NCBI GenBank assembly: GCA_033065855.1
Contig: JAVXUO010000272.1
Coordinates: 226,211 to 290,210, forward strand
DNA: 64,000 bases
Origin: Escallonia rubra
Taxonomy: Eukaryota > Streptophyta > Magnoliopsida > Escalloniales > Escalloniaceae
Direction of reading: 5' to 3'
Made by a program: the position numbers and the translations under genes. Below, piece by piece: positions 1,957 to 60,818 of this stretch (the stretch's first letter is position 1; every line of letters begins with the position of its first letter). The notes below the pieces were generated by a model that was not told the origin of the DNA, searched no databases, and saw only the letters and a list, made by a program, of their open reading frames with translations.

Positions 1957-3480
1957 TTGTGACTTGAGCATGGTGGTTTGACCGGCTTGAGAGCATTGAA
2001 AAGTTGACCGTTGAATATGTGACGTGTCGTGCAAAAATGGGACCCCTAGTGCGCTCTTGGGTGCGACCAAAGTAGGTTAGGAACAATTGCGTATGTTAAC
2101 CATTTTCATTTATACTTACTTTTTTGAACCTCTTCATGTACATTTACCATTTTCCTCTGTAAATTTTCCGATCGTGTCCTAGCTCATCTTTCCACGGTAG
2201 TAACAACAACATCAACTCTGCCAAGTTACTCTGACCAGTCACCTTCGCCCACCACATCAAATTGCAACCTAATTACACCTACCGTCACCACAACAACAAC
2301 AATCAGCCAAAAATGTTTTTTTCTTTCTTGTAAATTTGTAGTCAATTGATTTTGGAAGTAAGATGACATTGAAGTTTTTCATCGGTAAATAAAGGACCTT
2401 TTACCACACAAAAAAAAAAAAAAAACAGCAATCAGCCAACTACTGTAAGCACCACAACCATAATCAGCAACAAAGATCTAGATCTGAAAATAAAAGCCCT
2501 AAAAACTGACCTTAGTTGTGGACATGACATGGTAGGTCAAGGTCGACCGCAGCAAGGTAGACAGAGATTGCGGTTGGGGGCACATATATTAACAATGAGC
2601 ACCGTCGACATACTCGTCAGGACCATCTCCATCCCCATGTGGTGTCACCATCGCAACACCACTTCCACTTGTCAGAAATACCGGCGGGGAAAGTGAAAGA
2701 TGACAAAAAGGGAGTGAGTGGGGGAGGGGAAAAAACATTTGAGTCACCCGCGGAAATACCCGACCCAAGGTAGGTCGGACATGGATCTAGGAAAAATGTT
2801 GAGTGTACGTAGAATTCAATGTAAATCCTACTCGTATCCACCATGTCTAAGTGTCTCTTCTCTGATGAAAAGGGCCTTTCCCCTCTCTTCTCTTACTCTA
2901 CACCTCTCTTTGCTTCAATAAATTCCGATCCACTTTTCTCACCCTTGTTCATTCCCGGTGTTTTCCTCTGGTTGAGGAGTTTCTTCCTGTTTGTAAGAGT
3001 TTCGACTTCTTCTGATTGTTCTCCAATGGTAGCCGACGGGATCGTTTCATGAGTTTGTGTCGCTGGCTCTGGTTTCTTTGCCTACTCCTTTGGTGGCCAG
3101 GAAAGTTATGACTTGATCGAGTAAAGATGATCTTTGTTGAAGGCATGCTATTTACTTTTGCTTCTAGTATTTGAGACATATCTCTTGAATGTGACTGTCT
3201 CCTCACGGTTTGTTCACCCCTTTACGAAGTAGTGCTTTATACTACTTTCATTTTATCTTCATATATTGTCCTTTGAAAAATCATACTAAAATTGAAATGG
3301 AGAAGAAAATAGGAATACGTTTTTTTGTTTACTTGTTATAAACACTCGAAATCATATCCGTACAAGAAAATTGGATCCTTTTTACGTACAACTCTCTCAT
3401 GAGTTTATTGCATCTACCTCCCCAAACAACTTCCTGGGATGACAATGCCACTACTATACCCACCTGCATAGTTCAATAAC
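1957..3480. other. Intergenic, no gene seen
   Basis: Mixed AT-rich sequence with an A16-17 run near 2408 that could be the tail of an old retroposon. The open frames of 60-85 codons have no recognisable family, no conserved splice structure and no codon pattern that separates them from noise. Confidence 0.5.
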
Positions 3481-3481
3481 A

Positions 3482-3905
3482 ACAAGGTGCTGCTAATGTC
3501 TCGAGAAACATTTGTAGGGACAAAAAATGACAATGTCACTTAATTAGAAGGCAATAAATAACTTAAAACGACAAACTAATGTCACGACTTACTTTTACGC
3601 CAGAACTCTAGAAAAAGGTTTGAACTGTTTGCTAGGCTACCTATGCTGTATATCCGTACCCCGTTCTCTGTTTTCATGAAAACGGAATTTGTGACCGTCA
3701 CAATCTGGACACCATTTTTGTTTAAACTGTTTGCTAGGCTACCTATGCTGTAAGACGAATGAAAATGAGATTAGCGAGGCGGGTCCACATTATAAAGTAA
3801 CGTTGCGCTGCTAATGTCTCGCTAAGCATTTTTAGTAACAGAAGACGACAATGTCACTTAACTATAAGGCAATAAATCACTTGTAACGACAAACTAATGT
3901 CACGT
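3482..3905. repeat. Two interleaved direct repeats next to PG-A
   Basis: A ~105-base block (from GGTGCTGCTAATGTCTCG to ACGACAAACTAATGTCACG) occurs at about 3484-3590 and again at 3803-3905 with scattered differences. A shorter block, AACTGTTTGCTAGGCTACCT, occurs near 3625 and 3725. The arrangement suggests local duplication or a remnant of a small transposon downstream of the broken polygalacturonase. Confidence 0.7.
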
Positions 3906-3955
3906 CTTTCGTTGGTAATGATTGTTTGGCAACAAAGAGGATGCTAGGTGTTTAC

Positions 3956-5870
3956 CTGATGCCAAGTCCAGGGCCGCATCCGATCCGATCAATCCAGACA
4001 TTCTTGGTGTTGGGACCAATGGCAATGCAATCGTCTCCGGTCCTGATTATGCGGCGGGAGATGGTAACGCCCGTGGAGTCCTGCATGATGATGCCGTCTG
4101 TGTTTGGATCCTCAGGTTATTGCACCGGGCAACCGCAAAATGACTTAACTGGCTCTTGTTCGACCTTAAGCCACTGACCACAATGTTATTGCACCACAGG
4201 AACGTTATTGACTGCACAAACACAGTGGAAAATTATTGGCACACATATCGGCATGGAGCCAAAAAACAGACACACACATTACGCGTACCCTTGTTCCATA
4301 GGGACAATTACTTCCGGTTCTGCGGCAGGCCCAGAAGCCAGCTCCTCTTCCATCAACGGTTCCTCCGCTAACAGTCAACCTTGAGACTGGAGCAAAATCC
4401 AGAGTTCCCTAGGGAGCGGTAGTCCCACGGAGCTACAAGAGTTCCTTGAATCTGGAGCAGGATTCTGTTCTTGTATGGACAACTAAAGACTGCATTCTTG
4501 ATCAAAAAATTGTCTCGAGGAACATACACCAAAGCCAGTGCAACCGAGTTGCATGCAGCCATCCAAGACCGAAGGAATGGTAGGTCGAGTCGGATTGACC
4601 ATCTGGTTTGGCACCAAAACTGACTACATTATAGGCTGCATTAAGGGGCGGAACCAGGATTTTATTTCAAGGGCGGCAAAAATTATATCGAATTCACTAA
4701 AAAAATTTGTTAGTAAATAATAGCCAAAAAAATTCTGTTAGTAAAATAATACTATCTTGATTAGACTGCGAGGACGCTGCCAATTTTTCTTTCTTTCTAA
4801 AATCTTTTTCATTCTGAAAAAAAAAAAAAAAACACACGCGCATTAGAATAAAATCTCAGTTCTCAACACAAATTCACATAGTTAAATAACTGTACATTTC
4901 AAGCTCAATATCAAATTCACATTTCCAGATGAACCTCCGCTCCCGAGCTCAAGCTCCACCTCCGAATCTCAACACAATATCAAATTCCAACAAAACAGTA
5001 CATTTTCAACTTCCCAATTTTAAAATTAAATAGTCAAACAAACTCAAGCTCAACGTCACATTCCAGCACAATTATAAACTATCGATGCACTAATTTATGA
5101 ACTAGAAAAGCAATTAACCAATTAAGAATTAGTAAAGCAAATTAACCAAATAATTACGGTGTTCCAACATCCACCAAATCACCAATAATTTATGCAATAT
5201 ATATAATCAAGGCATAATTCATTATTTGGTTTAGCATTTTCATTAGGGAACATAAATATATATAATCAAGGCATAATTTTTGCTTACCAATTAAGAATTA
5301 GCAAGCAAATTAAACGAACATATTTTATAAATTTCTATATAATCCATTACTGAAATTAAACTACAATTTCAAGATAAAGAAGCAGCTTACTTGAAGATGG
5401 GAAGTAACAGCAGTCAGCCAGTCAGCAGAGAATGAGATAAGCTCGCCGGTGACCAGTCGCCCGTCGGTCAGTCGCGGCGTCCCCTGCAGGCTGCAGCTGC
5501 ACAGCTGTTGGCAACTTGGCCGTCGCGGCGTCGCCCGTCACTGTCAGTCGCACAGCGGCACAGGCGCAACTCGAGAAACGATCCGGCGTTCAGATCTGGT
5601 CACAGCTCGTGCTCAGGCTCTCGGGCAATGGCCGTCGCTGTCGTCACGGACTCACAGTCGGAGTGTAGACACCGGTCAGCGGTCACGAAGAGAAAGAGAG
5701 AGACTGAGAGGCAGAGCGGATGGGGTCTCGGGGAACGGGGTCACAGGAGACAGGGTGCAATTTCCCAAAAAAAATTATTTTTTTTTTCAAAATTCGAGGG
5801 GGTGCACTAGCCCCCCTAGTTCCCACGTAGGTCCGCCCTTGGATCCATGAACACCGCATCAAAATATATT
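3956..5870 (-). pseudogene. PG-A: broken polygalacturonase (GH28), split by a transposon
   Basis: On the minus strand the start of a secreted polygalacturonase is readable: the end of a signal peptide (CGVHGS) near 5845-5860, then AAYNVVSFGAKPDG near 4600-4640, VYVPR and QGTLVAPWDYRSLGNSG near 4400-4530, and the second exon with NTDG, TGDDCIAIGP and CGPGLGIR at about 3956-4110. The exon ends in a clean GT donor (GTAAAC). Signal peptide and mature start are separated by a 1.2-kb insertion, and several frameshifts, stops and a scrambled stretch near 4110-4200 break the frame. The catalytic GHG motif reads GLG. Exons 3 and 4 were not found downstream. It differs more from the other copies here than they do from each other, so it is an older member of the cluster. 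Confidence 0.88.
4643..5840. mobile_element. Non-autonomous hAT-like DNA transposon inside PG-A exon 1
   Basis: The ends are imperfect inverted repeats: GGGGCGGAACCAGG on the left and, read inward from the right, GGGCGGACCTACG, followed by a stretch mentioning 'tagtgcaccccctcgaattttg' type sequence shared with the element at 29.3 kb. The exact insertion point is visible because joining the flanks restores the polygalacturonase reading GSNAAYNVV. No 8-bp target duplication of the kind hAT elements make is seen, so the family call is tentative. No transposase is present. The GC-rich inner part near 5450-5760 resembles the same zone of the 29.3-kb element in opposite orientation. Confidence 0.75.
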
Positions 5871-6785
5871 TGTGTGCTGTCGCCACCCCAGGCGAGAGTG
5901 TAGCTGCGTCGTATTCAATGTAGAACCAATGATAGAAAAACTTTGACTCCAAGCACCGCACACACATGGGCATGTACATCCAGCTGGATTACGGCCATTG
6001 CCACCACTCATGCCATCAAAAGCCACAATCACCACAGCCCTGGCTTACACATTATGTGTACAACTAAGTCTTTGCTACAACCATCATGTGCTGCGAACCC
6101 CATTTTGACAAATAACTGTTGCTAGTTATGGTTCATGGCAAATGTTCAGTGATGCAAAAAATATGTTGCTCGAGTTTACGCCCTTCATGTAATAGTAGAA
6201 AGTTTGGGTGGGCTTTGAATAAATACGTTATGTAAAAACCCCGTTACTTTAGTGAGATTACTACCTCAAATAAATACATATGTAATCAATAAACTAAAAT
6301 TGTACCTTTTTCTTAATATTAAATTTTTTTGGTGCATTTTAAATAATGACCTTAAATACGGGGACTCTATGTATTTTCCCACTTTAAGGCTTGATTAAGT
6401 GGTTCTTTCTTCTCTTCAGCAGCCTCCTTGCTTCTGTTTTCTAGGGCACGCACCTCAGTCAAATTTCCGATATCCTACTTCGGTACGAATTAAGTATTCG
6501 TCGCTAGTAGTCGTCTATTTCATTATTGTAGTATTTTGGAGGTTTGATTAATAAGACCTAGAGTTTTTTTTTTTTTTGTTGACTTTTGGTGTTAGGTTTT
6601 GCATGAGTGCAGATCGGGTAACAGTTGCGTTGGGACTTAGTGTTGCCGAATTGCTCGTATAACACAAGGAATTTCTTATATTTTTGCTATGGTAAGTATT
6701 TGACTTGTCGATAGATGGGGTTTTAGCCTCTTTACTTTAGCGACCATTGCCTATTCCTATATGGACAGACCGAGCGGTCGCAGCG
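5871..6785. other. Intergenic between PG-A and the BIR1-like gene
   Basis: This should hold the upstream region of PG-A and the 3' flank of the receptor gene. No open frame, RNA gene or clear repeat is recognisable apart from A/T runs. Confidence 0.5.
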
Positions 6786-7742
6786 TCATGCTACAACCTT
6801 GGTTACCGCTAAAGTTAGTTCGTTATGATATTTAACAACAATTTCATTTTGCATTAACATCTGAGAGTCACTTATGAGGCCATACCTCTCCCCAGCTATG
6901 GTCCTCATTTCGTTGTACACGTCCAACATGGATGGCCTCTGATCTAGAGAGGACTGGACGCATTTGCAGGCAATCACGAGGAACTGATTGATCTCATCTT
7001 CAAATCCCTGCCCAAGCAAAGACTCGTCGATTGCGTCGTATAGACTCGTGAAGTTACTGAAAGTACCACCAGAATTATTGCAAAATAGAATCAGTTTAAT
7101 AGGTTCCTCTCTTGTAACCAACTCAAGAAGCACGATGCCGAATCCGTATACGTCCTTCTTATCACAACCCAGAACCCAAGTTTCTCCACTTCCCAGAAGT
7201 TTTCTACTTGAAACAGTGGAATTTGAGCTCATAATGGTTGCCTCCCCGAAATTTGAAAGCTTTGTCTCAAAAGTATGATCCAGTAAGATACATTCTGAGC
7301 TAATGTTTTGATGAACTACCCGAAGATTTTTGTTACTATGGAGCCATGCGAGGCCTCTAGCTAGCCCCACCGCAATTTTAACTCTCACAGGCCATTCCAT
7401 GATGTTCGTGTCACCCTCCACGGGATGTAGCCACTCATGGAGGTTACCGTTTTTCATATATTTATAAACCAAAAGTCTCTCTTTCAAGTGGATGGAGAAA
7501 CCTATCAATGGCATCAAATTGCTATGCCTTAACCTCCCTAATGTCATTACCTCTGAGATGAACTTTTTTTCTGAGCGTTTCGATTTATTGAACCTCTTGA
7601 CGGCTAGGATCGAACCATTTGGGAGCGACGCCTTGTACATGGTGCCCAGTTTTCCTATCCTATTTGCTTCATTGAAATTTTTGGTTGCCTTCTCGAGCTC
7701 TGCAAACTGAATTCTCGTTGCAAACTTCTCCAGCAAATAGAT
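6786..7742 (-). CDS. BIR1-like: BIR1-like receptor pseudokinase, exon 2 (kinase domain)
   Basis: A 319-codon exon (stop included) reading IYLLEKFATRIQF, then a protein-kinase fold close to BAK1-interacting receptor-like kinase 1. In order it shows a degraded glycine loop (GKLGTMY), the ATP lysine in LAVKRF, an HRD position reading HQN (VVHQNISSECILL), a DFG position reading NFG, then DVYGFGIVLLELVT and the C-lobe arginine in QRPSMLDVY. The APE region is shortened and unrecognisable. Lacking the catalytic Asp and the metal-binding Asp, it should be a pseudokinase; several BIR proteins work that way, holding BAK1 in check at the plasma membrane. The exon begins right after a good acceptor (GCTAGCAG). 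The LRR half lies ~10 kb upstream, across the foldback element. Confidence 0.85.
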   Translation of the reverse strand: MYLLEKFATRIQFAELEKATKNFNEANRIGKLGTMYKASLPNGSILAVKRFNKSKRSEKKFISEVMTLGRLRHSNLMPLIGFSIHLKERLLVYKYMKNGNLHEWLHPVEGDTNIMEWPVRVKIAVGLARGLAWLHSNKNLRVVHQNISSECILLDHTFETKLSNFGEATIMSSNSTVSSRKLLGSGETWVLGCDKKDVYGFGIVLLELVTREEPIKLILFCNNSGGTFSNFTSLYDAIDESLLGQGFEDEINQFLVIACKCVQSSLDQRPSMLDVYNEMRTIAGERYGLISDSQMLMQNEIVVKYHNELTLAVTKVVA

Positions 7743-8851
7743 CTGCTAGCAATGTACCCAGTTTATTGTTGTCAGTTCTCAAAGTACGCACGATTCACGC
7801 GGATGAAAAAATAAATAAATTTAGTAGTATCTAGACTTCAATAAACCAAGATGAAGATGCCAACTTAGTCTTGTATTTAGTGAAACGTCCTCCTGATTCA
7901 GGGTTCAAGTCTCATCAGGAGATACAAAAGCTCGGGACGTTGAGGCATGTTAGACTAGAAATGGTTCCATGACTTAATAAAGACCAAGTTACATACAAAG
8001 ATGGAAAAATTAACTTGGTATGTAGTCAGGGGAATCCTATTCATGCCTGGAACAAAAACGGATGTGGAATTCTCATTCCTATCTTGTATGCATTAGGGGA
8101 GGGTGGATTGGGGAGTGACAGTCGACGACGCCTATTACACAAAAATTGCTGCTGAGGCACTGGAGATACTTGGCTTAAGTTACTTGCGGGGAAAAGGGGA
8201 TCATGTTCCTACACACACACACACACACACACATGGGGGGCTGATCCACATCTATCAGTGAACAAAATAATTATTTCTCCAACTATAATCTGGCTTATTA
8301 CACAAAAGTTGTGAACGACTCAGATTTGATATTTTTTTACTTTAACCGCTACTAAGCGAAGCTAGATAATTCTAGCGTTAAAAATTAATCAGCTCCCATA
8401 TGTGCATAAATAAATCCATAACATATATACATGTCGCTATATACATGTATGTGTGTGTGTATCTATACTACTTATAACGAGGACACCTTTTTTTATTTTT
8501 GGTGAAACGCCCTTTTGGTGTTACACCGAAAGTGATTTTAGTGACGACATGTGTTCAAAATGAGGGTAAAATCGTAAAATATATTTTTGTTGTTACATAA
8601 CTACCTAACTACAATGATGACAAGTGACATTTCAAAAAAATCTTTAAAATGTGACACTAAATAAAAATCTTAATCGGTAAGTAACTAGCTACCTATAATA
8701 ATATGTTTAGATTTCATAAGTTAAAATTCATCAGAAAATATAGTTAAAAAAAAATAAATTTCAGATCAAGTTTGATACAATAATAATATTTTTGCTAACT
8801 TATTTTTGGACATATTACTGAATATGATAATAAATATGTACATGTGATGTT

Positions 8852-8884
<33 letters not shown>
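7743..8884. other. Intron of the BIR1-like gene, 3' part
   Basis: No coding sequence seen. It contains an (AC)n microsatellite at about 8211-8232 and, directly after it, GGGGGGCTGATCCACATCTA, which resembles the terminus of the foldback element at 8885. It ends in a (TA)n tract at 8851-8884 that abuts that element. The segment looks like original intron plus old transposon pieces. Confidence 0.55.
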
Positions 8885-8887
<3 letters not shown>

Positions 8888-8924
8888 GCCCGATCCACAC
8901 CCACCGGTGGAGAAAAAAATTTTC

Positions 8925-9205
8925 TCCACCCAACCGCTTGTAAGACAAGCGGTTGGCTACTGTGTCATTTTCTCGTGGGCCCCACCACAAAAAGCCCAAC
9001 CGCATGTAAGAGCAGCGGTTGGGCATGATTATTTTTTTGGCATGGCCCACCATAAAAAACCACTCCACCCAACCGCTTCTCTTATACGCGGTTGGGACAA
9101 ATTTTTTTTTGCCCAACCGCTTCTCTTAGAAGCGGTTGGTAACCCCTTTTTTTTTTAACAATTTTTTAAAGAACCAACCGCATATAAAAGAAGCGGTTGG
9201 TGGCT
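8925..9205. repeat. Five CCAACCGC hairpins, left arm
   Basis: Five short inverted repeats of the form CAACCGC(T/A)T ... (A/G)CGGTTGG with loops of about 7-10 bases occur near 8930, 8998, 9068, 9113 and 9174. All have the same stem, while the loops vary. The stem is kept though surrounding poly-A/T runs vary, so the inverted motif is probably the conserved part. Confidence 0.85.
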
Positions 9206-9284
9206 TTTATTTTGGGTGGCTCCCACACAACAACTTTCAAATTTTTTGATTGGCTGAGACAAAAAAAAAAAAATCATGCCGAGG

Positions 9285-9745
9285 CTGCCACGTGGCATCA
9301 TCCGCGCCTGCCACGTGGCCCAACCGCGTGAAGGGGCGCCGGTTGGTGCCACGTGGCCTCCTCAGCGTCTGCCACGTGGCCCAACCGCGTGAAGAGACGC
9401 AGGTTGTTGCCGCGTGGCTTACACGCGCCTGCCACGTGGCCACCACGCGCCTGCCACGTGGCCACGCGCGGGAAGGTGGGCCTGTTGGGGCGCCGGCGGT
9501 GCCACGTGGCCTCTTCAGCGTCTGCCACGTGGCCCAACCGCGTGAAGGGACGCCGGTTGTTGCCGCGTGGCCTCCACGCGCATGCCACGTGGCCACCACG
9601 CGCCTGCCACGTGGCCAAACGCGGGAAATTGCGCCTGTTGGTACGATGCGGTGCCACGTGGCCTCCCCCGCTCCTGCCACGTGGCCCAACCGCGTGAAGG
9701 GGCCCCGCGGGTTGCCTCTCCTTCTGCCACGTGGCGCCCCTCCCC
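9285..9745. promoter_or_regulatory. Array of 13 perfect G-boxes, left arm
   Basis: The palindrome CCACGTGGC, containing the G-box core CACGTG, occurs 13 times in about 450 bases, plus two CCGCGTGGC variants. Copies are spaced 15-50 bases apart and linked by CCAACCGCGTGAAG spacers. G-boxes of this form are bound in plants by bZIP (GBF, HY5, ABF) and bHLH (PIF, MYC) factors. The array sits just outside a TATA-like sequence, where enhancer sites would be expected. Long open frames here are by-products of the repeat. Confidence 0.8.
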
Positions 9746-9900
9746 CCACGCGCCTGATGGCTCCCCGTGACTCTGTCCTTCCTCCCCGTGACTGTCCTTT
9801 TTTGCAGTGGTTCCCGCCAAATTTTTTTTTCTGCCACCACTCACGGGTTTTTTCTGCAGACACCAACCCTCTTTTTTCTTCTCTCCTCCTTTTTCTTCTC

Positions 9901-10058
9901 TATTTATAATCCCCTCCCCCCAACCATTCTTCTCCACATTTCTGCTCTGCTCCGCATTTTTTCTCCACAAACCAAAAAATATTAGCGCTAGAAGAAGATC
10001 GGTGAATAATCGCTAGAAGATCGGTAGATTTTTCTTCAAATCCATCAAGTCACAACAA
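9901..10058 (+). promoter_or_regulatory. Left-arm promoter module (TATA-like plus splice donor), reads inward
   Basis: A TATTTATA sequence in pyrimidine-rich DNA is followed by ~150 bases of 5'-UTR-like sequence and a consensus splice donor (AACAA|GTAAGTAT at 10059). It mirrors the right-arm module. Transcription from here would run on the plus strand, antisense to the PMD gene. The TATA-like motif could also be read in the outward direction as TATAAATA; the downstream donor favours inward. Confidence 0.5.
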
Positions 10059-10170
10059 GTAAGTATTTTGAATTTCCTTATACATCAAGTCAGCGTATTA
10101 CACTTAGCGTATTACACTTAGCGTATTACATTTATAGCGATTCAAAATAGCGTATTACATTACATTTATA

Positions 10171-11771
10171 GACAGATTTTTCACGGATTTATAAAAAATA
10201 GCTAGAGCGAGATTTTGCCAAAGTACAAAAAAGAGACCCTAGTTATTCTGAAAGCATCTGTATCAGGTAAAAATTTCAGATTTTTCCAAGCACTGTAGAG
10301 GGGCTAACTGATACGGGGAACCGTGTACCTTCGCAGTCTAATTTAAAATACCAAGCTAGCGCGATTTCGCGCGAAACTTTTACGAGTACCCTAGGATGTT
10401 GGGAAGTTCCATTCCCCAGGATTTCGCGCCATTCCGGAGCCGTTTGCTATTTTTTTGCCCGAACGGCCCTTTCAGCGCTCGCCCTTTAATTAGACAGCTT
10501 TTTCACGGATTTATAAAAAATATCTAGAGCGAGATTTGGCCAAAGTACAAAAAAGAGACCCTAGTTATTCTGAAAGAATCTGTATCAGGTAAAAATTTCA
10601 GATTTTTCCAAGCACTTTAGAGGGGCTAGATGCTACGGGGAACCGTGTACCTTCGCAGTCTAATTTAAAATACCAAGCTAGCGCGATTTCGCGCGAAACT
10701 TTTACGAGTACCCTAGGATGTTGGGAAGTTCCATTCCCCAGGATTTCGCGCCATTCCGGAGCCGTTTGCTATTTTTTTGCCCGAACGGCCCTTTCAGCGC
10801 TCGCCCTTTAATTAGACAGCTTTTTCACGGATTTATAAAAAATAGCTAGAGCGTGATTTGAAAAAAAAAAAAAAAAGAGACCCTAGTTATTCTGAAAGCA
10901 TCTGTATCAGGTAAAAATTTCAGATTTTTCCAAGCAATGTAGAGGGGCTAACTGCTACGGGGAACCGTGTACCTTCGCAGTCTAATTTAAAATACCAAGC
11001 TAGCGCGATTTCGCGCGAAACTTTTACGAGTACCCTAGGATGTTGGGAAGTTCCATTCCCCAGGATTTCGCGCCATTCCGGAGCCGTTTGCTATTTTTTT
11101 GCCCGAACGGCCCTTTCAGCGCTCGCCCTTTAATTAGATAGCTTTTTCACGGATTTATAAACCGTATCTAACGCGTGATTCGGCCAAAGTGTAAAACAGG
11201 GACCCTAGTTATTATGAAAGGATCTGTATCAGGTAAAAATTTCAGATTTTTCCAAGCGCTGTAGAGGGGCTAACTGATACGGGGAACCGTGTACCTTCGC
11301 AGTCTAATTTAAAATACCAAGCTAGCGCGATTTCGCGCGAAACTTTTACGAGTACCCTAGGATGTTGGCAAGTTCCATTCCCCAGGATTTCGCGCCATTC
11401 CGGAGCCGTTTGCTATTTTTTTGCCCGAACGGCCCTTTCAGCGCTCGCCCTTTAATTAGACAGCTTTTTCACGGATTTATAAAAAATAGCTAGAGCGTGA
11501 TTTGGCCAAAGTGCAAAACAGGGACCCTAGTTATTCTGAAAGCATCTGTATCAGGTAAAAATTTCAGATTTTTCCAAGCGCTGTAGAGGGGCTAACTGAT
11601 ACGGGGAACCGTGTACCTTCGCAGTCTAATTTAAAATACCAAGCTAGCGCGATTTCGCGCGAAACTTTTACGAGTACCCTAGGATGTTGGGAAGTTCCAT
11701 TCCCCAGGATTTCGCGCCATTCCGGAGCCGTTTGCTATTTTTTTGCCCGAACGGCCCTTTCAGCGCTCGCC
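10171..11771. repeat. Five tandem 322-bp repeats, left arm
   Basis: The unit start (GACAGCTTTTTCACGGATTT) recurs at 10171, 10493, 10815, 11137 and 11459, giving an exact 322-base period. Every unit keeps a small palindrome, CGCGATTTCGCG, and the block TACGAGTACCCTAGGATGTT. Units differ mainly in one ~60-base window. No long common frame runs through all units. Confidence 0.95.
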
Positions 11772-12416
11772 CCGGACACCGGTTCGCGATTTTTGCGCGA
11801 AAAATCCGTAAAGTACTTTTTAGGCCAATGATGAACTCACGAAGCGTAAAGTAGAATTTCGAGGCACCTTTGAGATTTTTCCTGATGCCAGGGGCATTTC
11901 GGTAATTTGCCACCCCGCGAGGGGTGTTTCGGTGTTTTTCCCGCGCCAAGTTTTTAATTACACAGTTTTAGTCCAGGAATGTAATCACAGAAACTGAAAT
12001 GTTGTTTTGAAGCTGGTTCGGGGGCGTTGGGGTGATAGTGAACCCCCGGGGGCATTTCGGTAATCTGTCGCTCATCGGTGACTATTTTGCTAGGAAGGAT
12101 CCTGCAAGTTAATACATGCCTTAAAATAACTTTTAGTTCGGCAAAGGGTGTCAGACACCCGAAAACTTTTATTGCCCCGGGTGAATTCAGGAACTTGTGA
12201 CGCACCGGCGATGACTGCCAGGGGGTATTTTGCACAAGTAGCGGGTGTTTTGGTAACTTTCCCCCTTTAAAATTTTTCCTGATATATTGGGTATATAATT
12301 GACGTAATACTCCAGCTGCTTGAAAACGTCAGTGGCCTGGTCAACCTAACAAACATGCATAGAAAATATGGCAAATCATTTCATTTGATGGTCGATACGC
12401 GTGTGCAAATAAATTA

Positions 12417-13890
12417 TCAAACAACACTAGCATGACTTACAATGGCCAATGCCCAGAACTGGTCATAGACCTCACGGGGCGCATAGGATTTGGTCCTCAC
12501 TGGGGCAGGGCGAGTCACCCGCGTGCGCGTCACCCTGAGAAACCACTGTAAGTAGTCCTCAGTACTGGTGCTATAGTGCTTCATCGATACAAGGCTGTCA
12601 TACGTTTCCTGCCAGGTATTCCATTGTTGCACCTCGTCACCCAACACAGTCAAGGCATTAGTCACCTCGAAGTTCGGCCCTCGACCACCCCTGTATGGCC
12701 GCATGTCTACAGCGGGTTTCGGAATCCCTTGTGGACAGCCAGCTTGCTTCATAACTCGATCGGGCATCTGAAACTCACATTCTTCGAAGTGAATCAGCGG
12801 CACCCGAACCAAACCTGCAAGCACGTACGACACCGGAAGTTGCCACCACAACTCATCCAACAGATGCATCACCTTGTCGTATGGCTGCCACGCCACCTGG
12901 TATGCATCCAACATCTCTAGTTCCCCCCGATAGAACTGTAGATGGTTGTGAGGGTCTATCCGTCTCCTCCTCCGGTTGGTCGGTGGTCCCCAGTCCCACA
13001 CCCTAGGCCACGTTTCATCGGAATCTACCAACGGTTGTGGACGACCCGTGGGTAGCCTCTCGTAAGACCAAACCTGTGAACGCAAACATTATATGGAATT
13101 AGTAATGAATCCCGAATATATTGACTAAGGATCCGGATAAGAAAATAAATGCTCATACCTGTAATAGAGTCAGGCAGGCGGCAATGGACTTGGCACCGAA
13201 TCTCGTAGCCTTATGCAGTGCTCGATATAGGTGCGCAAGGACAGCTGAACCCCACGAGTACGAGTATACCTCGTCAAGATCCTCCAATAACACCATATAC
13301 CTCGGATGCACTGTGTTTTTCGAGTGCGTCGGAAGTAATATGGCTCCAATAATATACAGAAGGTATGCCCTCGTATACGTCACGAAATCCTGACGAGTGT
13401 ACTCATCCGGTAGCACGCCATACCGCTCTCTCAGCCATTTAAGCTTGACGCCGTTTGTTGTAAGAGCTGCCCTTGGAATTCCCGGAAAATAATGTCTAGC
13501 CATATTCGCTACGGATGCAGACGGCACGCTCAGAGTAACGGGTCTGTCGTGACATGGGATTCCAAGTATATATCCGACGTCCTCTAACGTAACAGTCATT
13601 TCACCAAACCGGAAATGAAATGAGTTCGTCTCGCTCCTCCATCGTTCAACTAGAGCGGATATAAGGCAATCGTCGTGGCGATACCATTTCCCGCAATCGG
13701 TGAACAGGCTTAAATTTTGACCATGTATAAGGGCTTTTTGTTCCTCGTTTAGTACCCACTCTTCAATTCCTCTTGTGGTTTGAATTGTTTCCAAAACACC
13801 CCTATCGACACCGTCAAATACGTGCCTCGCGACGTGGTCATCGTCATCGTATAGGATTGATGTATCATGAGGTCCGGGGTTGAAATCCAT
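12417..13890 (-). CDS. PMD (plant mobile domain, MAIN/PP7-long-form-like) protein
   Basis: Two coding exons, 13890-13159 and 13073-12417, joined across an 85-base GT/AG intron, give 462 residues with no internal stop. The junction restores LLQVWSYERLPTGRP, the expected PMD wording. Visible PMD hallmarks are WRSETNSFHFRFGEMTVTLE, DVGYILGIP, and PYRGG/PDRVMKQAG in the second half. PMD proteins include Arabidopsis MAIN and MAIL1, nuclear proteins linked to transposon silencing, and related domains ride in Gypsy and MuDR elements. The ATG at 13890 is preceded by an acceptor (TTCTTATAG|AT). A perfect GTAAGT near 12437 lies just before the stop, so a longer spliced C-terminus is possible. Intactness in an element without transposase suggests recent function. 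Role inferred only. Confidence 0.85.
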
Positions 13891-14168
13891 ATCTATAAGA
13901 ACAAAATATAATCGTAAACCAACATATCAGGTTATAATATTTACATTCCAAACCAACATATCTGGATGTTTAACCTAGCTTACCAACACATTAGCAATAG
14001 TCATTATTTAAATGTATTAAAACAAATCCTCACTTCCCACCACTCCGAACGGTTAATTACGCCAGTTCTCACTGAATGTAGCGCCAACGTGGTTATATAG
14101 CAATATACCCCCCGACGGCCCCTACACCCCCAAGACCTCAAAACCGCTTTGAAGTCAAGTTTTTAAAT
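13891..14168. other. Core spacer upstream of the PMD start
   Basis: Unique to the centre of the element. It holds the end of the inferred long 5' intron, with the acceptor at 13893-13894. No promoter-like TATA motif stands out, which fits transcription starting farther out, in the right arm. Confidence 0.5.
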
Positions 14169-14708
14169 GTATTACGTCAATTATATACCCAATATATCAG
14201 GAAAAATTTTAAAGGGGGAAAGTTACCAAAACACCCGCTACTTGTGCAAAATACCCCCTGGCAGTCATCGCCGGTGCGTCACAAGTTCCTGAATTCACCC
14301 GGGGCAATAAAAGTTTTCGGGTGTCTGACACCCTTTGCCGAACTAAAAGTTATTTTAAGGCATGTATTAACTTGCAGGATCCTTCCTAGCAAAATAGTCA
14401 CCGATGAGCGACAGATTACCGAAATGCCCCCGGGGGTTCACTATCACCCCAACGCCCCCGAACCAGCTTCAAAACAACATTTCAGTTTCTGTGATTACAT
14501 TCCTGGACTAAAACTGTGTAATTAAAAACTTGGCGCGGGAAAAACACCGAAACACCCCTCGCGGGGTGGCAAATTACCGAAATGCCCCTGGCATCAGGAA
14601 AAATCTCAAAGGTGCCTCGAAATTCTACTTTACGCTTCGTGAGTTCATCATTGGCCTAAAAAGTACTTTACGGATTTTTCGCGCAAAAATCGCGAACCGG
14701 TGTCCGGG

Positions 14709-16312
14709 GCGAGCGCTGAAAGGGCCGTTCGGGCAAAAAAATAGCAAACGGCTCCGGAATGGCGCGAAATCCTGGGGAATGGAACTTCCCAACATCCTAG
14801 GGTACTCGTAAAAGTTTCGCGCGAAATCGCGCTAGCTTGGTATTTTAAATTAGACTGCGAAGGTACACGGTTCCCCGTATCAGTTAGCCCCTCTACAGCG
14901 CTTGGAAAAATCTGAAATTTTTACCTGATACAGATGCTTTCAGAATAACTAGGGTCCCTGTTTTGCACTTTGGCCAAATCACGCTCTAGCTATTTTTTAT
15001 AAATCCGTGAAAAAGCTGTCTAATTAAAGGGCGAGCGCTGAAAGGGCCGTTCGGGCAAAAAAATAGGAAACGGCTCCGGAATGGCGCGAAATCCTGGGGA
15101 ATGGAACTTCCCAACATCCTAGGGTACTCGTAAAAGTTTCGCGCGAAATCGCGCTAGCTTGGTATTTTAAATTAGACTGCGAAGGTACACGGTTCCCCGT
15201 ATCAGTTAGCCCCTCTACAGCGCTTGGAAAAATCTGAAATGTTTACCTGATACAGATCCTTTCATAATAACTAGGGTCCCTGTTTTGCACTTTGGCCAAA
15301 TCACGCTCTAGCTATTTTTTATAAATCCGTGAAAAAGCTGTCTAATTAAAGGGCGAGCGCTGAAAGGGCCGTTCGGGCAAAAAAATAGCAAACGGCTCCG
15401 GAATGGCGCGAAATCCTGGGGAATGGAACTTCCCAACATCCTAGGGTACTCGTAAAAGTTTCGCGCGAAATCGCTCTAGCTTGGTATTTTAAATTAGACT
15501 GCGAAGGTACACGGTTCCCCGTATCAGTTAGCCCCTCTACAATGCTTGGAAAAATCTGAAATTTTTACCTGATACAGATGCTTTCAGAATAACTAGGGTC
15601 TCTTTTTTGTACTTTGGCCAAATCACGCTCTAGCTATTTTTTATAAATCCGTGAAAAAGCTGTCTAATTAAAGGGCGAGCGCTGAAAGGGCCGTTCGGGC
15701 AAAAAAATAGCAAACGGCTCCGGAATGGCGCGAAATCCTGGGGAATGGAACTTCCCAACATCCTAGGGTACTCGTAAAAGTTTCGCGCGAAATCGCGCTA
15801 GCTTGGTATTTTAAATTAGACTGCGAAGGTACACGGTTCCCCATAGCATCTAGCCCCTCTACAGTGCTTGGAAAAATCTGAAATTTTTACCTGATACAGA
15901 TGCTTTCAGAATAACTAGGGTCTCTTTTTTGCACTTTGGCCAAATCTCGCTCTAGATATTTTTTATAAATCCGTGAAAAAGCTGTCTAATTAAAGGGCGA
16001 GCGCTGAAAGGGCCGTTCGGGCAAAAAAATAGCAAACGGCTCCGGAATGGCGCGAAATCCTGGGGAATGGAACTTCCCAACATCCTAGGGTACTCGTAAA
16101 AGTTTCGCGCGAAATCGCGCTAGCTTGGTATTTTAAATTAGACTGCGAAGGTACACGGTTCCCCGTATCAGTTAGCCCCTCTACAGTGCTTGGAAAAATC
16201 TGAAATTTTTACCTGATACAGATGCTTTCAGAATAACTAGGGTCTCTTTTTTGTACTTTGGCAAAATCTCGCTCTAGCTATTTTTTATAAATCCGTGAAA
16301 AATCTGTCTATA
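14709..16312. repeat. Five tandem 322-bp repeats, right arm
   Basis: Mirror of the left-arm array. The block GCGAGCGCTGAAAGGGCCGT begins units at about 14709, 15028, 15350, 15672 and 15995. In the right arm the whole array lies inside the proposed first intron of the PMD gene. Confidence 0.93.
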
Positions 16313-16406
16313 AATGTAATGTAATACGCTATTTTGAATCGCTATAAATGTAATACGCTAAGTGTAATACGCTGACTTGATGTATAAGGAAATTCAAAAT
16401 ACTTAC

Positions 16407-16564
16407 TTGTTGTGACTTGATGGATTTGAAGAAAAATCTACCGATCTTCTAGCGATTATTCACCGATCTTCTTCTACCGTTAATATTTTTTGGTTTGTGG
16501 AGAAAAAATGCGGAGCAGAGCAGAAATGTGGAGAAGAATGGTTGGGGGGAGGGGATTATAAATA
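16407..16564 (-). promoter_or_regulatory. Right-arm promoter and leader exon for the PMD gene
   Basis: Read on the minus strand: TATTTATA at 16564-16557, a C/T-rich stretch, about 120 bases without any ATG, then the donor AACAA|GTAAGT at 16406. The next good acceptor towards the PMD start is TTCTTATAG at 13893, so splicing would remove 2,514 bases, including all five 322-bp repeats, and place two bases before the ATG. Leader free of ATG, consensus donor and well-placed acceptor are seen; the joined transcript is inferred. Confidence 0.6.
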
Positions 16565-16727
16565 GAGAAGAAAAAGGAGGAGAGAAGAAAAAAGAGGGTT
16601 GGTGTCTGCAGAAAAAACCCGTGAGTGGTGGCAGAAAAAAAAATTTGGCGGGAACCACTGCAAAAAAGGACAGTCACGGGGAGGAAGGACAGAGTCACGG
16701 GGAGCCATCAGGCGCGTGGGGGGAGGG

Positions 16728-17245
16728 GCGCCACGTGGCAGAAGGAGAGGCAACCCGCGGGGCCCCTTCACGCGGTTGGGCCACGTGGCAGGAGCGGGGG
16801 AGGCCACGTGGCACCGCATCGTACCAACAGGCGCAATTTCCCGCGTTTGGCCACGTGGCAGGCGCGTGGTGGCCACGTGGCATGCGCGTGGAGGCCACGC
16901 GGCAACAACCGGCGTCCCTTCACGCGGTTGGGCCACGTGGCAGACGCTGAAGAGGCCACGTGGCACCGCCCGCGCCCCAACAGGCCCACCTTCCCGCGCG
17001 TGGCCACGTGGCAGGCGCGTGGTGGCCACGTGGCAGGCGCGTGTAAGCCACGCGGCAACAACCGGCGTCTCTTCACGCGGTTGGGCCACGTGGCAGACGC
17101 TGAGGAGGCCACGTGGCACCAACCGGCGCCCCTTCACGCGGTTGGGCCACGTGGCAGACGCTGAGGAGGCCACGTGGCACCAACCGGCGCCCCTTCACGC
17201 GGTTGGGCCACGTGGCTGGCGCGGATGATGCCACGTGGCAGCCTC
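16728..17245. promoter_or_regulatory. Array of 15 perfect G-boxes, right arm
   Basis: CCACGTGGC occurs 15 times, two more than in the left arm because one unit (GGCCACGTGGCACCAACCGG and its neighbour) is duplicated. It lies upstream of the inward promoter that faces the PMD gene, in an enhancer-like position. Confidence 0.8.
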
Positions 17246-17334
17246 GGCTCGAATTTTTTTTTTTTTTTTTTTTCAGCCAATCAAAAAATTTGAAAATTTT
17301 TGTGTGGGAGCCACCCAAAATAAAAGCCACCAAC

Positions 17335-17605
17335 CGCTTCTTTTATATGCGGTTGGTTCTTTAAAAAATTGTTAAAAAAAAAAGGGGTTACCAACCGCTT
17401 CTAAGAGAAGCGGTTGGGCAAAAAAAAATTTGTCCCAACCGCGTATAAGAGAAGCGGTTGGGTGGAGTGGTTTTTTATGGTGGGCCATGCCAAAAAAATA
17501 ATCATGCCCAACCGCTTCTCTTACATGCGGTTGGGCTTTTTGTGGTGGGACCCACGAGAAAATGACACAGTAGCCAACCGCTTGTCTTACAAGCGGTTGG
17601 GTGGA
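17335..17605. repeat. Five CCAACCGC hairpins, right arm
   Basis: Mirror of the left-arm cluster: the same CAACCGC ... GCGGTTG stems near 17333, 17391, 17438, 17508 and 17574, next to the right terminus. Confidence 0.85.
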
Positions 17606-17636
17606 GAAAATTTTTTTCTGACCGGTGGTGTGGTCG

Positions 17637-17683
<47 letters not shown>

Positions 17684-17704
17684 TTCGAGAGAGAGGGGGT
17701 TTGC

Positions 17705-18568
17705 CTTATCATCCTCCACGCTTGTCTCTATCTTCGTTGGCTGCCGGCTTCTCTGACTTTTCTCTTGTTTCATTTTCTTCTTCATCCGGATTATCATCTT
17801 CTTTACAAAAACAGTGGGCAAAATATACCAAGTAACTGCAAACGCCAAAACGGTAGCGATTGCCCAGCCAACCAGCATCCCCCTTAGAAGAGAATCACGA
17901 TAATCAGTATTTTCCTTGCAGCGTTTTAAAGGATACCCACAGAGCCCCTGATTTTTGGCATAGGCTTCTGCGGCGATTGTAACATGAGGAGAAAACGTAG
18001 GTACGGGACCTGATAAGCGGTTGTTAGCAACACTGAATGTCTTGATCCTACGAAGCATGCCGACTTCTTGTGGAATATGACCCTCTAACCGATTGTTTTC
18101 AAGTTTGAGGACATTGAGGAACGATAAATTTCCGATGCTTATGGGTATTTCGCCGGAGATATTATTGGACGATAGATCAAGAGTTGTAACGTATGGGATC
18201 AATTCTGGGATGTCGGATGGGATTGCTCCAAAGAGCAAGTTGCTGGAAAGGTCTAGACCTGTCAGACTTGAACACATTTCTAACCCTCGCGGGAAGCCGC
18301 CTTTGAGTCCCATGCCTGAAAGCCGGAGGTTCAACACCTTGTTTTCGTATGAATGCCAGCATTCAACGCCAGCAAACCGGCAGATAAAACCTTCGGTGCG
18401 GTTGCTGAAATCCCAAGAAGAGCTTAAGTAATTGAGAGGGTCTTCCAAGGAATCCTTAATGGATTTTAAGCAACGTATATCGTTGCTACCACCATTAGTA
18501 CGTTCGCAGCAAGTACACTGCAAAATAAAGACCAAAACAAGAGTAGGATATCTTTGATTATGCGCCAT
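17705..18568 (-). CDS. BIR1-like: BIR1-like receptor pseudokinase, exon 1 (LRR and transmembrane)
   Basis: About 288 codons from MAHNQRYPTLV; Mets at 18589 and 18598 are also possible. A hydrophobic signal peptide (to about residue 17) is followed by the LRR N-cap (CLKSIKDSLEDPLNYL, FICRFAGVECWH), four to five LRRs (LTGLDLSSN, VTTLDLSSNNISGEIP, LNVLKLENNRLEGHIP, KTFSVANNRLSGPVP), the C-terminal GLCGYPLKRC and a transmembrane segment (GWAIATVLAFAVTWYILPTV) before a lysine-rich stretch. This matches the short ectodomain of BIR1 (At5g48380), a plasma-membrane partner of BAK1 that restrains defence. No GT donor exists before the (TA)n tract; the best is a GC donor (GATAAG|GCAAAC) at 17704, which joins in phase to exon 2. 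Joined length is about 606 residues, near the ~620 of BIR1. Whether the ~10-kb intron is spliced is unknown. Confidence 0.85.
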
Positions 18569-19500
18569 TTCGATGTACAAAACAGCCATAACCAGCAAGG
18601 TATATAATGATGCTCGTAATCTGAAGAGTCAAGATCACACTGACCCGAGGAATTTCGAGGAATTTTCTTCTTAAACCAAAGGATACATACGGGTCAAGCA
18701 TGTAATAACTGAGGGGTGGGTATACGTCAACAGCGCAAGTCCATTCCACTCATTGACCAAGGAGACTTTTCTGCCTTTCTAGTTTCTTCTGCCGACAAAC
18801 TTTTGCTTGCTCGCTTGCGACAATTAAGAATCAATTGATATTTTTCATGATTTTTTTATTAACTTTTTTAAGCGACGATTTTTTATAACAATTTTTAGCA
18901 TCATTAAGCAAACGTCACTAAATATATTTAACGATAAATAATTATTGTTCTATAGGGGATTGTAGGTATTTTCTTATATAATTACAATCCGGGTAGTAGT
19001 AAAAAAAAATTTCTCATTCTTCCTAAGTTCTGTGTCTATTCTGGGATGAAAAAAAACTTTAATATGGCCCCTATCATGTTTATAGGAATATAGTTACAAC
19101 CTCTCATATAACGGCTATTAATGATCGTCAAATATCTTTAGTGGTTCTTATTTAATGACGTTAGAAAAGTACTGTTAAGAATTATCGTTATAAGTATTAA
19201 TAGGATTATCAATAATTATATTTAATTGATCACTAGTTATAGTTATACAAGAGTTTGTAGGTACCTCAAAAATAGTAGCAAAAACCGAATTCTTGTACGA
19301 AGCGTGTTAATAAAAAAGGATGGCAATGTCTAAAGATGTTTTAGAAGGAATATGGTATATTTTTACTACTCTAACCAACACAGTCCTTAAATTCTATCTC
19401 GTGAGTAGCACCAATTTTGTCGTGAACTAGTACATTTTTGCAGTGAATTTTTAAAATCTCCAAAAAACACTGGAGGTGATACTATAGGATAAATAAAGTT
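18569..19500. other. Upstream region of the BIR1-like gene, no gene seen
   Basis: A TATATAATGAT tract near 18600 could be a TATA box for the minus-strand receptor gene. The rest is AT-rich sequence with no recognised element or coding frame. Confidence 0.45.
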
Positions 19501-19831: not shown

Positions 19832-20794
19832 CTACAGACAGCTTGTAGGCTCAACTAAGCCAGAACTAGTTCCTCCGGCATTGGCGCAGGATGCTGCGCG
19901 CGGCTGGCTGATTCTGGTATGTGAGCTTTACATCTTCCAACCTTATGCCGCTGCATGGATTGTTCCGACTACAGTCGAATTTCACTGCAACTGGTGTTGC
20001 TGATGTTCCGTGGATGTCCTGGTAGGTTACATCTCTTATTTTTACACACGAAACCTGTGAGAATAGGGGGAAAAACCAATCCAATCAACATTTATTTCCC
20101 GTTGAGCTGTGTGTAATCTGTGTAAACGAAGAGTATTCTTGGTAGAGTCATACATGACCAGGGCAATTTAAATTGTGAGGGTAGTAATTTTGGTCGATAA
20201 CGATAGGGTTTTGGACATTAATCATGACAGCATGCTGGAAAAGAACGCCCTGAACAAATTCAGAGTTAGGTCGACCCCATGCCTTTATTCTCACACCATT
20301 CTATGTACCCTTAAATGTAACTGTTTTAATCGTCACGTTCTGCACACCGGCTTCTTGCAAATCCTTGCCTAGACTCCCAATGCTGCAACACCGGCAAATT
20401 ATCTTAGGCGAGACTACAAATATTGTTAAAGGATTTATCTTTAATTGCCACAGTCTCGGGATCTACTATACACCATTTTAATGACAGTAAGGACATAAAC
20501 TCACCTAATGCCGTGCCCAGGACCGCAAACAACATTTTCTATCCACAAATTGGCAGTTCCAGGGCCAATGGAGACACAGTCATCACCTGTACTGATCTTA
20601 GATCTCAAAATTGCGACTCCTGATGATAGTTGTACGTGAATGCCGTCCGTGTTGGGGCTAGTGCCTGATGCCAAGACTTTCACTCCCTGCATCTGCACGT
20701 TTCGGCAACCATTGATCACAATGTGAAACATTTGGCTGTTTAGTGAAGTTAAGCCACTAATCACGATGTTGTTCGAGTTGACAAAGCCCAGTGT
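19832..20794 (-). pseudogene. PG-B: 5'-truncated polygalacturonase, exons 2-4
   Basis: Exon 2 (20794-20505, 290 bases) carries [17 protein letters not shown] and CGPGHGI and has an intact CAG acceptor. Exon 3 (20382-20154, 229 bases) opens SIGSLGKDLQEAG but has a stop (TAG for Gln) just before the RIK motif, and its last codon lost the usual CAG. Exon 4 (20054-19832) ends in the family's PTSCL tail only in a shifted frame, because about four extra bases (CGCG type) lie near 19895. Exon 1 is missing: intron 1 runs into a copy of the family's 3' flank near 20990. That is what unequal crossing-over between intron 1 and a neighbour's 3' end would leave. Confidence 0.9.
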
Positions 20795-21563
20795 CTGCAA
20801 ATGCACATGGTGAGTATGAAACTTTGGGAAAAGACATTGCTTTAGGAAAAGGTTTGACAGACAACAAAATATTACGACATTGCTTTAGGAAAAGGAAAAT
20901 TTTCCTAGTATACATTTTGTATAAATGCAAAGAAGAAACGGCTTCATATACGTTGATGCTAGAAATAGCACGAGATAAATTTGGTATACTACTGATATTC
21001 CGGCAAAAAGAAAGCTCTATTGTTGTGTTCCAATCAGAATATTATACAAAAAATTAGCCATATTTATGTTGTTACAATGTGTACACTAAGCCTAAACAAT
21101 GGTATTGATTTACAAACTCTAATGCTATATACAACGTATTAGTGCACCAACAACCAGTGTGCATGGCTAGGCGAGCCCAATAGGTTGATGCAGCCACAGG
21201 CTCACGCACGACTCATTAGCCTTAATACTACAAGGTGGAAACATGAGAAGTTCTCTCCGTCGGGATTCAAACTATGCTAATAACTTTAATTGTTCATCTC
21301 CGCTACAGACAGCTTGTAGGCTCAACTAAGCCAGAACTAGTTCCTCCGGCGTTGGCACAGGATGCTGAGGCTGGATGATTCTGATACGCGAGCTTTACAT
21401 CTTCCAACCTTATGCCGCAGCATGGATTGTTCCTACTAGAGTCAAATTCACTGCAACTTGTGTTGCTGATGTTCCGTGGATGTCCTGGTAGGTTACATCT
21501 CTAATTTTTACACCCGAAACCTGTGAGAATAGGCGGAAAAACCAATCCAATCAACATATATTT

Positions 21564-22224
21564 TGTTAGAATTTGCTTTTATTTTATTTACAAATTCTTT
21601 TAGTAAGGCTTTAAAAACCTTACTTAAATTTCTTTATTTATCTTAGTCAATATAACCTATTGTATTAAACTTTGTCATAATTTTATTCATAACGTTTTTT
21701 TACCGTTGTTATTTATTATATGTGTAACCCCTTGTCTTCTTCTACTATAAAAGGAAACCACTCCTACCATGGAGAACACCCACATCAAGATATATGCTTG
21801 ATATTTTACATGTTCTTTACGTTCTCTATAATTTGGTTTTGGGGCAACTTGATTTCGCTAGTTCAACAGTCTTCTTGTGGACGCACACATAGAGAAGGCG
21901 ATGCTGCGAGCCTTGACTTGGATTTTATCTTAGAGAGTTTATCGGTCATTGAAACCCGTATGCAGGGAGATGATAAAGCCTTTAGGACAACGACTTTTTC
22001 GCGACTCTCACAGGCCAGCGTGAATTTACTTTTATTTTTCTATATCTAGAAATTTCATACTTAAAAGTTTATGTATGCTTATGCTTATTTTGCATGTCTA
22101 ACTATTTGTTTAGCCATACGTTTTGATAACTTTCATGGTTAAGCAATTACGTGCTTTAGTCAAAACTTTATGATTAATTATTATCTAAAATTAAAGTAGC
22201 AAATCCAGGCTATATTTTCCAACA
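21564..22224. mobile_element. Solo LTR in intron 3 of PG-C
   Basis: 661 bases beginning TGTTAGAATTTGC and ending TTTTCCAACA, flanked by a perfect 5-bp target duplication TATTT. It has a TATA-like CTATAAAAGG near 21746. The right third of the same LTR is present at the same intron position in PG-E (about 48226-48335), so it was inserted before PG-C and PG-E were duplicated. A fossil of LTR-LTR recombination; family not determined. Confidence 0.85.
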
Positions 22225-23395
22225 TATTTCACGTTGAGCTATGTCTAATTTGTGCAAATGAAGAGTATCCTTGGTAGAGTCATACCTGACCAGGGCAATT
22301 TATGTTGTTAGGGCAGTAATTTTGGTCGATGACGACAAGGTTTTGGACATTAATCATGACAGCATGCTGGAAAATAACGCCCTGAACAAATCCAGAGCTA
22401 GGTCGACCCCATGCCTTTATCCTCACACCATTTTGTGTACCCTTAAACGTTACGGTTTTAATGGTCACGTTCTGTACACCAGCTTCTTGCAAATCCTTGC
22501 CTAGAATTCCAATGCTGCAAAACCGCAAATAGTCTTAGGCGAAACCACAACTGTTGGCAAGGATCTCTTTCTAAGTGCCACAGTCCTGTGATCTACTACA
22601 CACCATTTTAATGACAATACTAATATAATCATGTTGGTTACCTAATGCCGTGGACAGGACCGCAAACAACATTTTCGATCCGCAAATTGGCAGTTCCGGG
22701 GCCAATGGAGACACAATCATCACCTGTACTGATCTTAGATCTCAAAATTATGACTCTGGATGACAGTAATTGTACGTGAATGCCGTCCGTGTTGGGGCTG
22801 GTGCCTGATGCCAAGACTTTCACACCCTGCAGCTTCACGTTTCGCCAATCATTGATCACAATGTGAAACATTTGGCTGTTTAGTGAAGTTAAGCCGCTAA
22901 TCACGATGTTGTTCGAGTTGACAAAGCCCAGTGTCCTCAAATGCACATGGTGAGTATGAAACGTCAGGAAAAGGACATTGCTTTAGGAAAAGGTTTGACA
23001 GACCACAAAATATTACGACATTGCTTTAGGAAAAAGAAATTTTTTCCTAGTATACTTTTTGTATAAATGCAATATCGAGTACATTTTTTGTATAAATGCA
23101 AAGAAGAAACGGCTTTATATACGTTGATACTAGAAATAACAGTTGATGAATTTGTCATACCGTAGCCCCACTCGGGCAAAGCTTGCTGGAGGCTTTGCAT
23201 GCCCATAGACCAGTGCCTTGACGGTCAAGAATGCCCCCGCTAATGGTTACTCCATTGACACCCTTGAATAGGATCCAGTTTCCAACACTCCTGAGTGCAT
23301 TGTAATCAGAAGGAGCCACAAGGGTGCCATCGAAACGAATCGTGATCGCCTTATTCTGGCAGGCACCACGAAAATGCACCTGCTGAACCAAGTAC

Positions 23396-60760: not shown

Positions 60761-60818
60761 TTACCCCGTTATCTTCCCCACCACTTCCAAACTCAAACGC
60801 TAGCTAGAGCTAAACACA

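Follow-up and report, generated by a model that had tools for sequence, protein, structure and literature searches.

Several described plant systems resemble, each in part, the foldback element found in the final 64 kb of the 290,210-bp contig C2006 of the 566-Mb Escallonia rubra assembly (the window, that is, the whole stretch of DNA analysed), which carries a gene for a plant mobile domain (PMD) protein. MuTAnT and AutoMuTAnT of Medicago are reported to share with it and its relatives (TA)n targeting, 9-nt target-site duplications (TSDs) at non-TA sites, foldback terminal inverted repeats (TIRs), GGGG ends with variable loss of G and an autonomous element with a Jittery-like transposase, here of FAR1-SWIM type (PMC4486113). 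In contrast, the TIRs given for MuTAnT average 47 bp (144 bp in the first described), compared with 3.0-3.6 kb here; their sequence (GGGGTTTGCTAGAACA) differs after GGGG from that found here (GGGGCCCGATCCACAC); and AutoMuTAnT, at 4.9 kb, has one open reading frame (ORF), whereas the full-length Escallonia relative C464, at ~13.5 kb, has two genes (PMC4486113). VANDAL elements of Arabidopsis carry accessory genes, VANC and KIU, with a DUF1985/PMD-type domain of what is predicted to be the same fold, a repeat-rich variable part, a Ulp1 domain in KIU and fast-changing non-coding tandem arrays, although their TIRs are described as degenerate whereas those of C464 are very long, 3.0 and 3.6 kb (PMC5735166, PMC10398659, PMC13317346).

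A PMD gene beside the transposase, often antisense to it, and a 9-bp TSD are tabulated for plant MULE (Mutator-like element) groups 42 and 45-50, with listed TIRs of up to 421 bp; the same source tabulates VANDAL with "PMD and/or DUF" and lists no PMD in its FAR1-bearing Jittery row, group 36 (PMC6446971). Among the ULP1-MULEs, KI-MULEs carry the ULP domain oriented opposite to mudrA but are non-TIR MULEs, and the term "mobile domain" is absent from the main text of that account (PMC2528002). MAIN and MAIL1 share the PMD domain and a role in transposon silencing but are described as host genes (PMC5418596, PMC7156037), and a counter-silencing role has already been proposed for transposon PMDs (PMC5418596, PMC8616336). 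The suggestion in an earlier note on this DNA that the family is undescribed may thus hold for the sequence family, but PMD genes as such, often antisense, were known in MULE groups (PMC6446971). As far as the literature searched shows, what is new is the family, its 3-kb TIR architecture, the combination of a PMD-linker-ULP1 gene with a FAR1-type transposase, and a predicted fold link to DNA-bound VANC.

A deleted copy of a two-gene Mutator family

Escallonia rubra harbours a Mutator family with two genes, of which the window element is a non-autonomous copy with an internal deletion. The element forms a near-perfect inverted repeat at 8885-17639 with a 1,858-bp core (Table 1), much as the earlier note had described it apart from the right end, which was put at 17640; three of the four terminal C of relatives are absent there. 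When the assembly was searched with the terminal 401 bp, all 40 candidates scored (of 519) matched at 94% or above. The whole element, with 24 of 3,348 candidates scored, matched by its core on 23 other contigs: 21 of these matches begin where arm and core meet, at query position 3425, and the other two, on C2908 and C1546, begin within the core, at 3731 and 3773 respectively. In 19 of the 20 left flanks fetched, the core continues into an interior that is absent from the window; the stretch on C2908 matches this interior just to 3,366 of 5,542 nt.

The full-length relative C464 (~13,544 bp) has TIRs at 1-2969 and 9931-13544. Inside its left TIR lies a transposase (a 779-codon ORF, L011:2711-5047:-, preceded by TTTTATTTTTTAG) with FAR1, MULE (PF10551, 6.6e-33) and SWIM domains, FAR1 being N-terminal and SWIM C-terminal, the domain order of the Jittery group. 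Inside the right TIR, on the opposite strand, lies a three-exon PMD-linker-ULP1 ORF of 930 residues, in which PMD exon 3 continues for 475 codons through a linker with six 20-residue repeats and a Peptidase_C48 domain; the ULP1 part likely holds a further intron, which may make the actual protein a little shorter. Both genes face near-identical TIR modules of hairpins, G-box array, TATA-like box, leader and 322-bp array, in which the leader is ATG-free and has a splice-donor motif. Seven further elements with paired termini, the pairing being assumed, span 10,677 to 13,831 bp.

Comparison with C464 locates the deletion precisely. Where C464 reads TTGACGTAATAC|ATTTAAAA in its left TIR and AAACGAC|TCCAGCTG in its core, the window copy reads TTGACGTAATAC|TCCAGCTG, and a search of the assembly found this 24-nt junction a single time, in the window copy; the PMD-only core is therefore a one-off. 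Each arm opens at its tip with five hairpins, which are followed inward by an array of GCCACGTGGC, then by a TATA-like box and its ATG-free leader, by repeats of GCGTATTAC, by the five 322-bp units and finally by an inner stretch. The hairpins, G-box array and 322-bp units of the earlier note are thus present, but the boundary of its "inner stem" is the deletion junction: the C464 TIR reaches ~220 bp further inward, so the layered arm is a TIR truncated on its inner side.

The family belongs to the Mutator/MULE superfamily, because the full-length relative encodes a MULE transposase, the evidence proposed beforehand as decisive, and because TIRs and a 9-bp TSD accompany it. The elements end in GGGGCCCGATCCACACCCACCGGTGG and its complement. 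At the non-TA site of C2908, ATGCAACTA stands on both sides, and in C2186 the two flanks (TTTATCTAT/TCTATCTAT) agree at 8 of 9 positions; TSDs are not readable in TA runs. Left tips could be located in 12 of the 20 flanks, and nine of them adjoin long TA runs. The window copy also sits in (TA)n, and the (TA)n target that had been proposed holds for a mobile family that is mostly found at such sites. Pack-MULE status was considered for the family and is ruled out, as the family has its own transposase.

In the window copy the PMD frame is open, as first noted, but the gene is not whole: exon 3 runs into the TIR after ~12 codons, with loss of the linker-ULP1 half. The coding exons (13890-13159 and 13073-12441, minus strand), when spliced, score 231.3 bits against PMD (PF10536; gathering score 34.9), with a splice-acceptor motif 2 nt before the ATG. 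For the DUF1985 profile (cut-off 35.1 bits), the match had E 1.1e-6 at a score of 29.1 bits, and the spliced protein scored 26.8 bits. Among the closest database proteins are three from Escallonia, at 45-48% identity, in a search whose length window would leave out a 930-residue protein. Four database PMD proteins (P0003, P0006, P0008, P0009) end soon after the position of the exon 2/3 donor; they may reflect gene callers reading through the donor, or pieces of longer PMD genes. An arm-derived ORF gave no protein match at E<=0.001 among 1,418 candidates. Having lost ULP1 and transposase while retaining PMD and the arrays presumed to be its target, the window copy would move only in trans; its part in the family is probably passive, or even one of interference.

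PMD-ULP1 as a candidate anti-silencer

We judge it fairly likely that the whole picture combines a deleted copy of a two-gene Mutator family, promoters within the TIRs and a PMD-ULP1 protein that acts as an anti-silencer. A more specific proposal, which we advance tentatively and with some doubt, is that the family encodes a PMD-based, VANC/KIU-like anti-silencer that brings ULP1 to fast-changing arrays in its 3-kb foldback TIRs, PMD being a sequence-specific DNA-binding fold common to transposon anti-silencers and to MAIN/MAIL1. In the overall picture, each TIR promoter would drive one gene, with the 322-bp array lying within the leader intron; PMD-ULP1 would bind tandem motifs that lie in its own family's TIRs and would remove silencing marks or SUMO-dependent repressors; and an element with 3-kb TIRs prone to yield small interfering RNA (siRNA) would thereby stay expressed, as VANC and KIU do for VANDAL.

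The overall picture draws on structure prediction, on coding constraint and on array turnover. Predicted PMD models match the DNA-bound fold of VANC21, with no other fold at E<=0.001 among the folds listed, which suggests that PMD shares this fold and serves as a DNA-binding domain. The VANC21 motif YAGTATTAY has no site in the element and one in the window, at 4746. The 7-mer GTATTAC, which GCGTATTAC shares with the C-type VANC21 motif YAGTATTAC, occurs nine times in the element, including the inner edges of the arms (12304 and 14169), and twice in the remaining window; this overlap is possibly a coincidence.

Across 20 copies (19 relatives and the window copy), PMD exons 1-2 are without gaps or stops and the five splice motifs are exact in all 20. 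The mean ratio of non-synonymous to synonymous differences per site (pN/pS) is 0.270 for PMD (190 pairs) and 0.307 for the transposase (9 gapless, stop-free copies of 15 full-length, with 5 flanks holding less), pairs not being independent and the transposase and ULP sets being selected for intactness. With exon 1 as a protein query, the 150 matches scored (of 4,272 candidates) all had no less than 82% identity, and 138 of them were stop-free. Within 20 divergent copies, chosen to be stop-free, pN/pS was 0.42; random change at half the observed divergence would introduce a stop in 78%. As for the arrays, GCCACGTGGC occurs 13 times in the left arm and 15 times in the right, and nowhere else in the window. 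Three divergent copies (C2250, C449, C2190) align with the core and the 322-type units at 79-94%, each stretch having a TA run and C449 retaining the terminus, and yet they hold no GCCACGTGGC, as against 15 in the window's right arm; G-rich tandem arrays of other kinds take its place. This turnover would resemble that of VANC targets, three copies being no proof of co-evolution.

Several observations weigh against this reading. The TM-scores against the VANC21 fold, 0.33/0.51 for P0001 and 0.63/0.44 for exon 1, are moderate, the PMD sequence profile found no PDB sequence at E<=10, and the link between PMD and VANC is one of predicted fold alone, a common fold not establishing function. For the ULP exon, mean pN/pS is 0.531 (7 gapless, stop-free of 11 full-length), which is weak, and for exon 1 of the window copy against the 20 divergent copies, chosen to be stop-free, the corresponding substitution-rate ratio (dN/dS) is 0.40-0.76. 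Private substitutions number 4 synonymous and 23 non-synonymous in the 19 relatives (5 and 6 in the window copy), so recent copies drift and constraint is visible in older shared differences alone. CACGTG occurs 1, 4 and 1 times in C2250, C449 and C2190, in C449 within its tandem unit, and the G-box array may have no role beyond that of an enhancer. Finally, although CpG of the arrays lies above that of all 260 windows outside, the observed/expected ratio of the 322-bp arrays falls from 1.28 and 1.20 to 1.07 and 0.99 once E2F-like sites are masked; a reading of this CpG as hypomethylation was therefore dropped.

Another account, which we regard as unlikely though well worth keeping in view, is that PMD-ULP1 occupies the mudrB position as a helper of transposition, serving integration, nuclear entry or complex assembly. 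It fits the gene's place as second MULE gene on the strand opposite the transposase, the closeness of the pN/pS of PMD (0.27) to that of the transposase (0.31), and the statement that mudrB function is not well defined (PMC4486113). However, the one predicted fold match at the threshold used is to an anti-silencing protein in complex with DNA, and fusion with ULP1 has a parallel in KIU/VANC (PMC13317346). A captured host sequence of the Pack-MULE type, functionless for the element, is improbable: MULEs often carry gene fragments (PMC8616336, PMC13317346), and the private changes of recent copies look neutral, but the frames stay open and the splice motifs exact at the counts given above, and the window PMD falls outside the 98-row group that holds MAIN-LIKE 2 proteins. 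In that 121-row tree, for which long branches were warned of, it belongs to a 23-row group (SH-aLRT 100) with Escallonia, carrot and other fast-evolving PMDs.

An independent non-autonomous family amplifying PMD alone, as the earlier note had it, is hardly credible: the window copy does hold PMD only, but its junction is unique in 566 Mb, 19 of 20 left flanks continue into the missing interior, the core matches on 21 of 23 other contigs begin at that junction (on 2, within the core), and relatives carry a transposase with the full PMD-linker-ULP1. Just as poorly placed is an assembly artefact duplicating one arm in inverted form: the window is the end of a contig, but copies on other contigs have the same TIRs, 46 positions and 5 indels distinguish the two arms, and C464 has these TIRs on both sides.

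Arms and surroundings of the window copy

Table 1. Coordinates of the element's parts within the window
Feature	Position	Strand	Remark
Left target flank, (AT)n microsatellite	8854..8884		Tandem Repeats Finder (TRF): 15.5 copies, 100%
Left arm	8885-12310		inverted repeat with right arm
Left terminus GGGGCCCGATCC and five tip hairpins (CCAACCGC...GCGGTTGG)	8885..9273	+	
Left G-box array, 13 x GCCACGTGGC	9274..9745	+	
Left core promoter (TATTTATAA ~9900) and ATG-free leader, donor GTAAGTAT at 10059	9746..10058	+	inward-directed; predicted
Left GCGTATTAC array, 4 copies	10092..10168	+	
Left 322-bp array of 5 units, each with three TTTCGCGC (E2F-like) sites	10169..11772	+	within predicted leader intron
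Inner left-TIR part	11773..12310	+	shortened by deletion
PMD exon 3 remnant	12187..12345	-	~12 true codons (VDQATDVFKQLE), then TIR-derived codons up to stop
Deletion junction	12309..12310		2-bp microhomology AC; ~5,538 bp of C464 (element 2751-8288) gone
PMD exon 2	12441..13073	-	Pfam PMD 1.9e-17; open in 20/20 copies
PMD exon 1	13159..13892	-	ATG at 13890; acceptor motif TTCTTATAG directly upstream
Right arm	14169-17639		inverted repeat with left arm
Inner right-TIR part	14169..14706	-	C464 TIR reaches equivalent of ~13951
Right 322-bp array, 5 units	14707..16310	-	
Right GCGTATTAC array, 3 copies	16318..16373	-	
Right promoter/leader, TATA-like box at 16565, first intron base 16406	16406..16733	-	directed at PMD gene; predicted
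Right G-box array; 15 x GCCACGTGGC in right arm	16734..17252	-	
Right tip hairpins and terminus	17253..17639	-	
Right target flank, (AT)n microsatellite	17640..17675		TRF: 18 copies, 100%

The two arms differ by 46 substitutions, nine of them within the terminal 24 nt, and by five indels, including one 61-bp G-box unit and one 14-bp unit; they show no C-to-T excess (8 transitions among 23 differences outside clusters, small numbers). The inner 538 nt are identical between the arms (P 0.0016, or 0.027 counted by clusters), an identity that needs no separate explanation now that the deletion has been found. When folded, the five left tip hairpins gave z = -5.5 to -7.2. The leader ends in GTAAGTAT in both arms and, counted from 30 nt beyond the TATA-like box, measures 129 nt in the left arm; we infer that the modules of both arms act as promoter and in leader splicing.

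Mirrored 322-bp units share variants, with L1=R1 and L5=R5 and with 4, 9 and 12 differences in L2/R2, L3/R3 and L4/R4. Clusters of changes in left units 3 and 4 (10857-10876 and 11159-11192) resemble conversion tracts from divergent copies. In the single unit tested, three TTTCGCGC sites compare with 0.13 expected, and 1 of 2,000 shuffles reached three. TTTSSCGC, an E2F consensus, occurs at 37 sites in the element and 2 in the remaining window. Amplification of E2F sites by plant transposons has been described (PMC12595863).

The flanking receptor kinase matches RJ640_018075 of Escallonia rubra at 100% over 290 residues and 99% over 291 residues. Since the leucine-rich repeat part ends at 17720 and the kinase part begins at 7745, the element lies within an intron of this gene model. 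The host gene looks like a BIR1-like receptor kinase, with parts at 6786-7745 and 17700-18600 (-), and two proteins related to it, RJ640_018072 and RJ640_018070, were also noted. Elsewhere in the window, 51647-54187 (+) holds what we take, from translation, to be broken Copia-type gag-pol frames; CpG observed/expected there (51640-54300) is 0.49 and TG/CA 1.30, a pattern usual for decay that the foldback element does not show. Repeated exons that are presumably polygalacturonase-like cluster at 20501-25749, 48392-49989, 60804-61286 and 63001-63672, several members being apparently broken.

Bearing on PMD function and long TIRs

PMD is described as a domain whose function is unknown, and how MAIN and MAIL1 act is said to be largely unknown (PMC8616336). 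The predicted fold match to the VANC21-DNA complex would make DNA binding by PMD, and its motif, directly testable, and the family offers natural material for this: many near-identical copies, subfamilies with differing PMDs and arrays, and one copy with PMD but without ULP1. If true, the proposed anti-silencing would explain the continued activity of an element with siRNA-prone palindromic ends. Long TIRs have been proposed to be a liability because they feed siRNA (PMC10398659); the coexistence here of extreme TIRs with a candidate anti-silencer bears on that idea.

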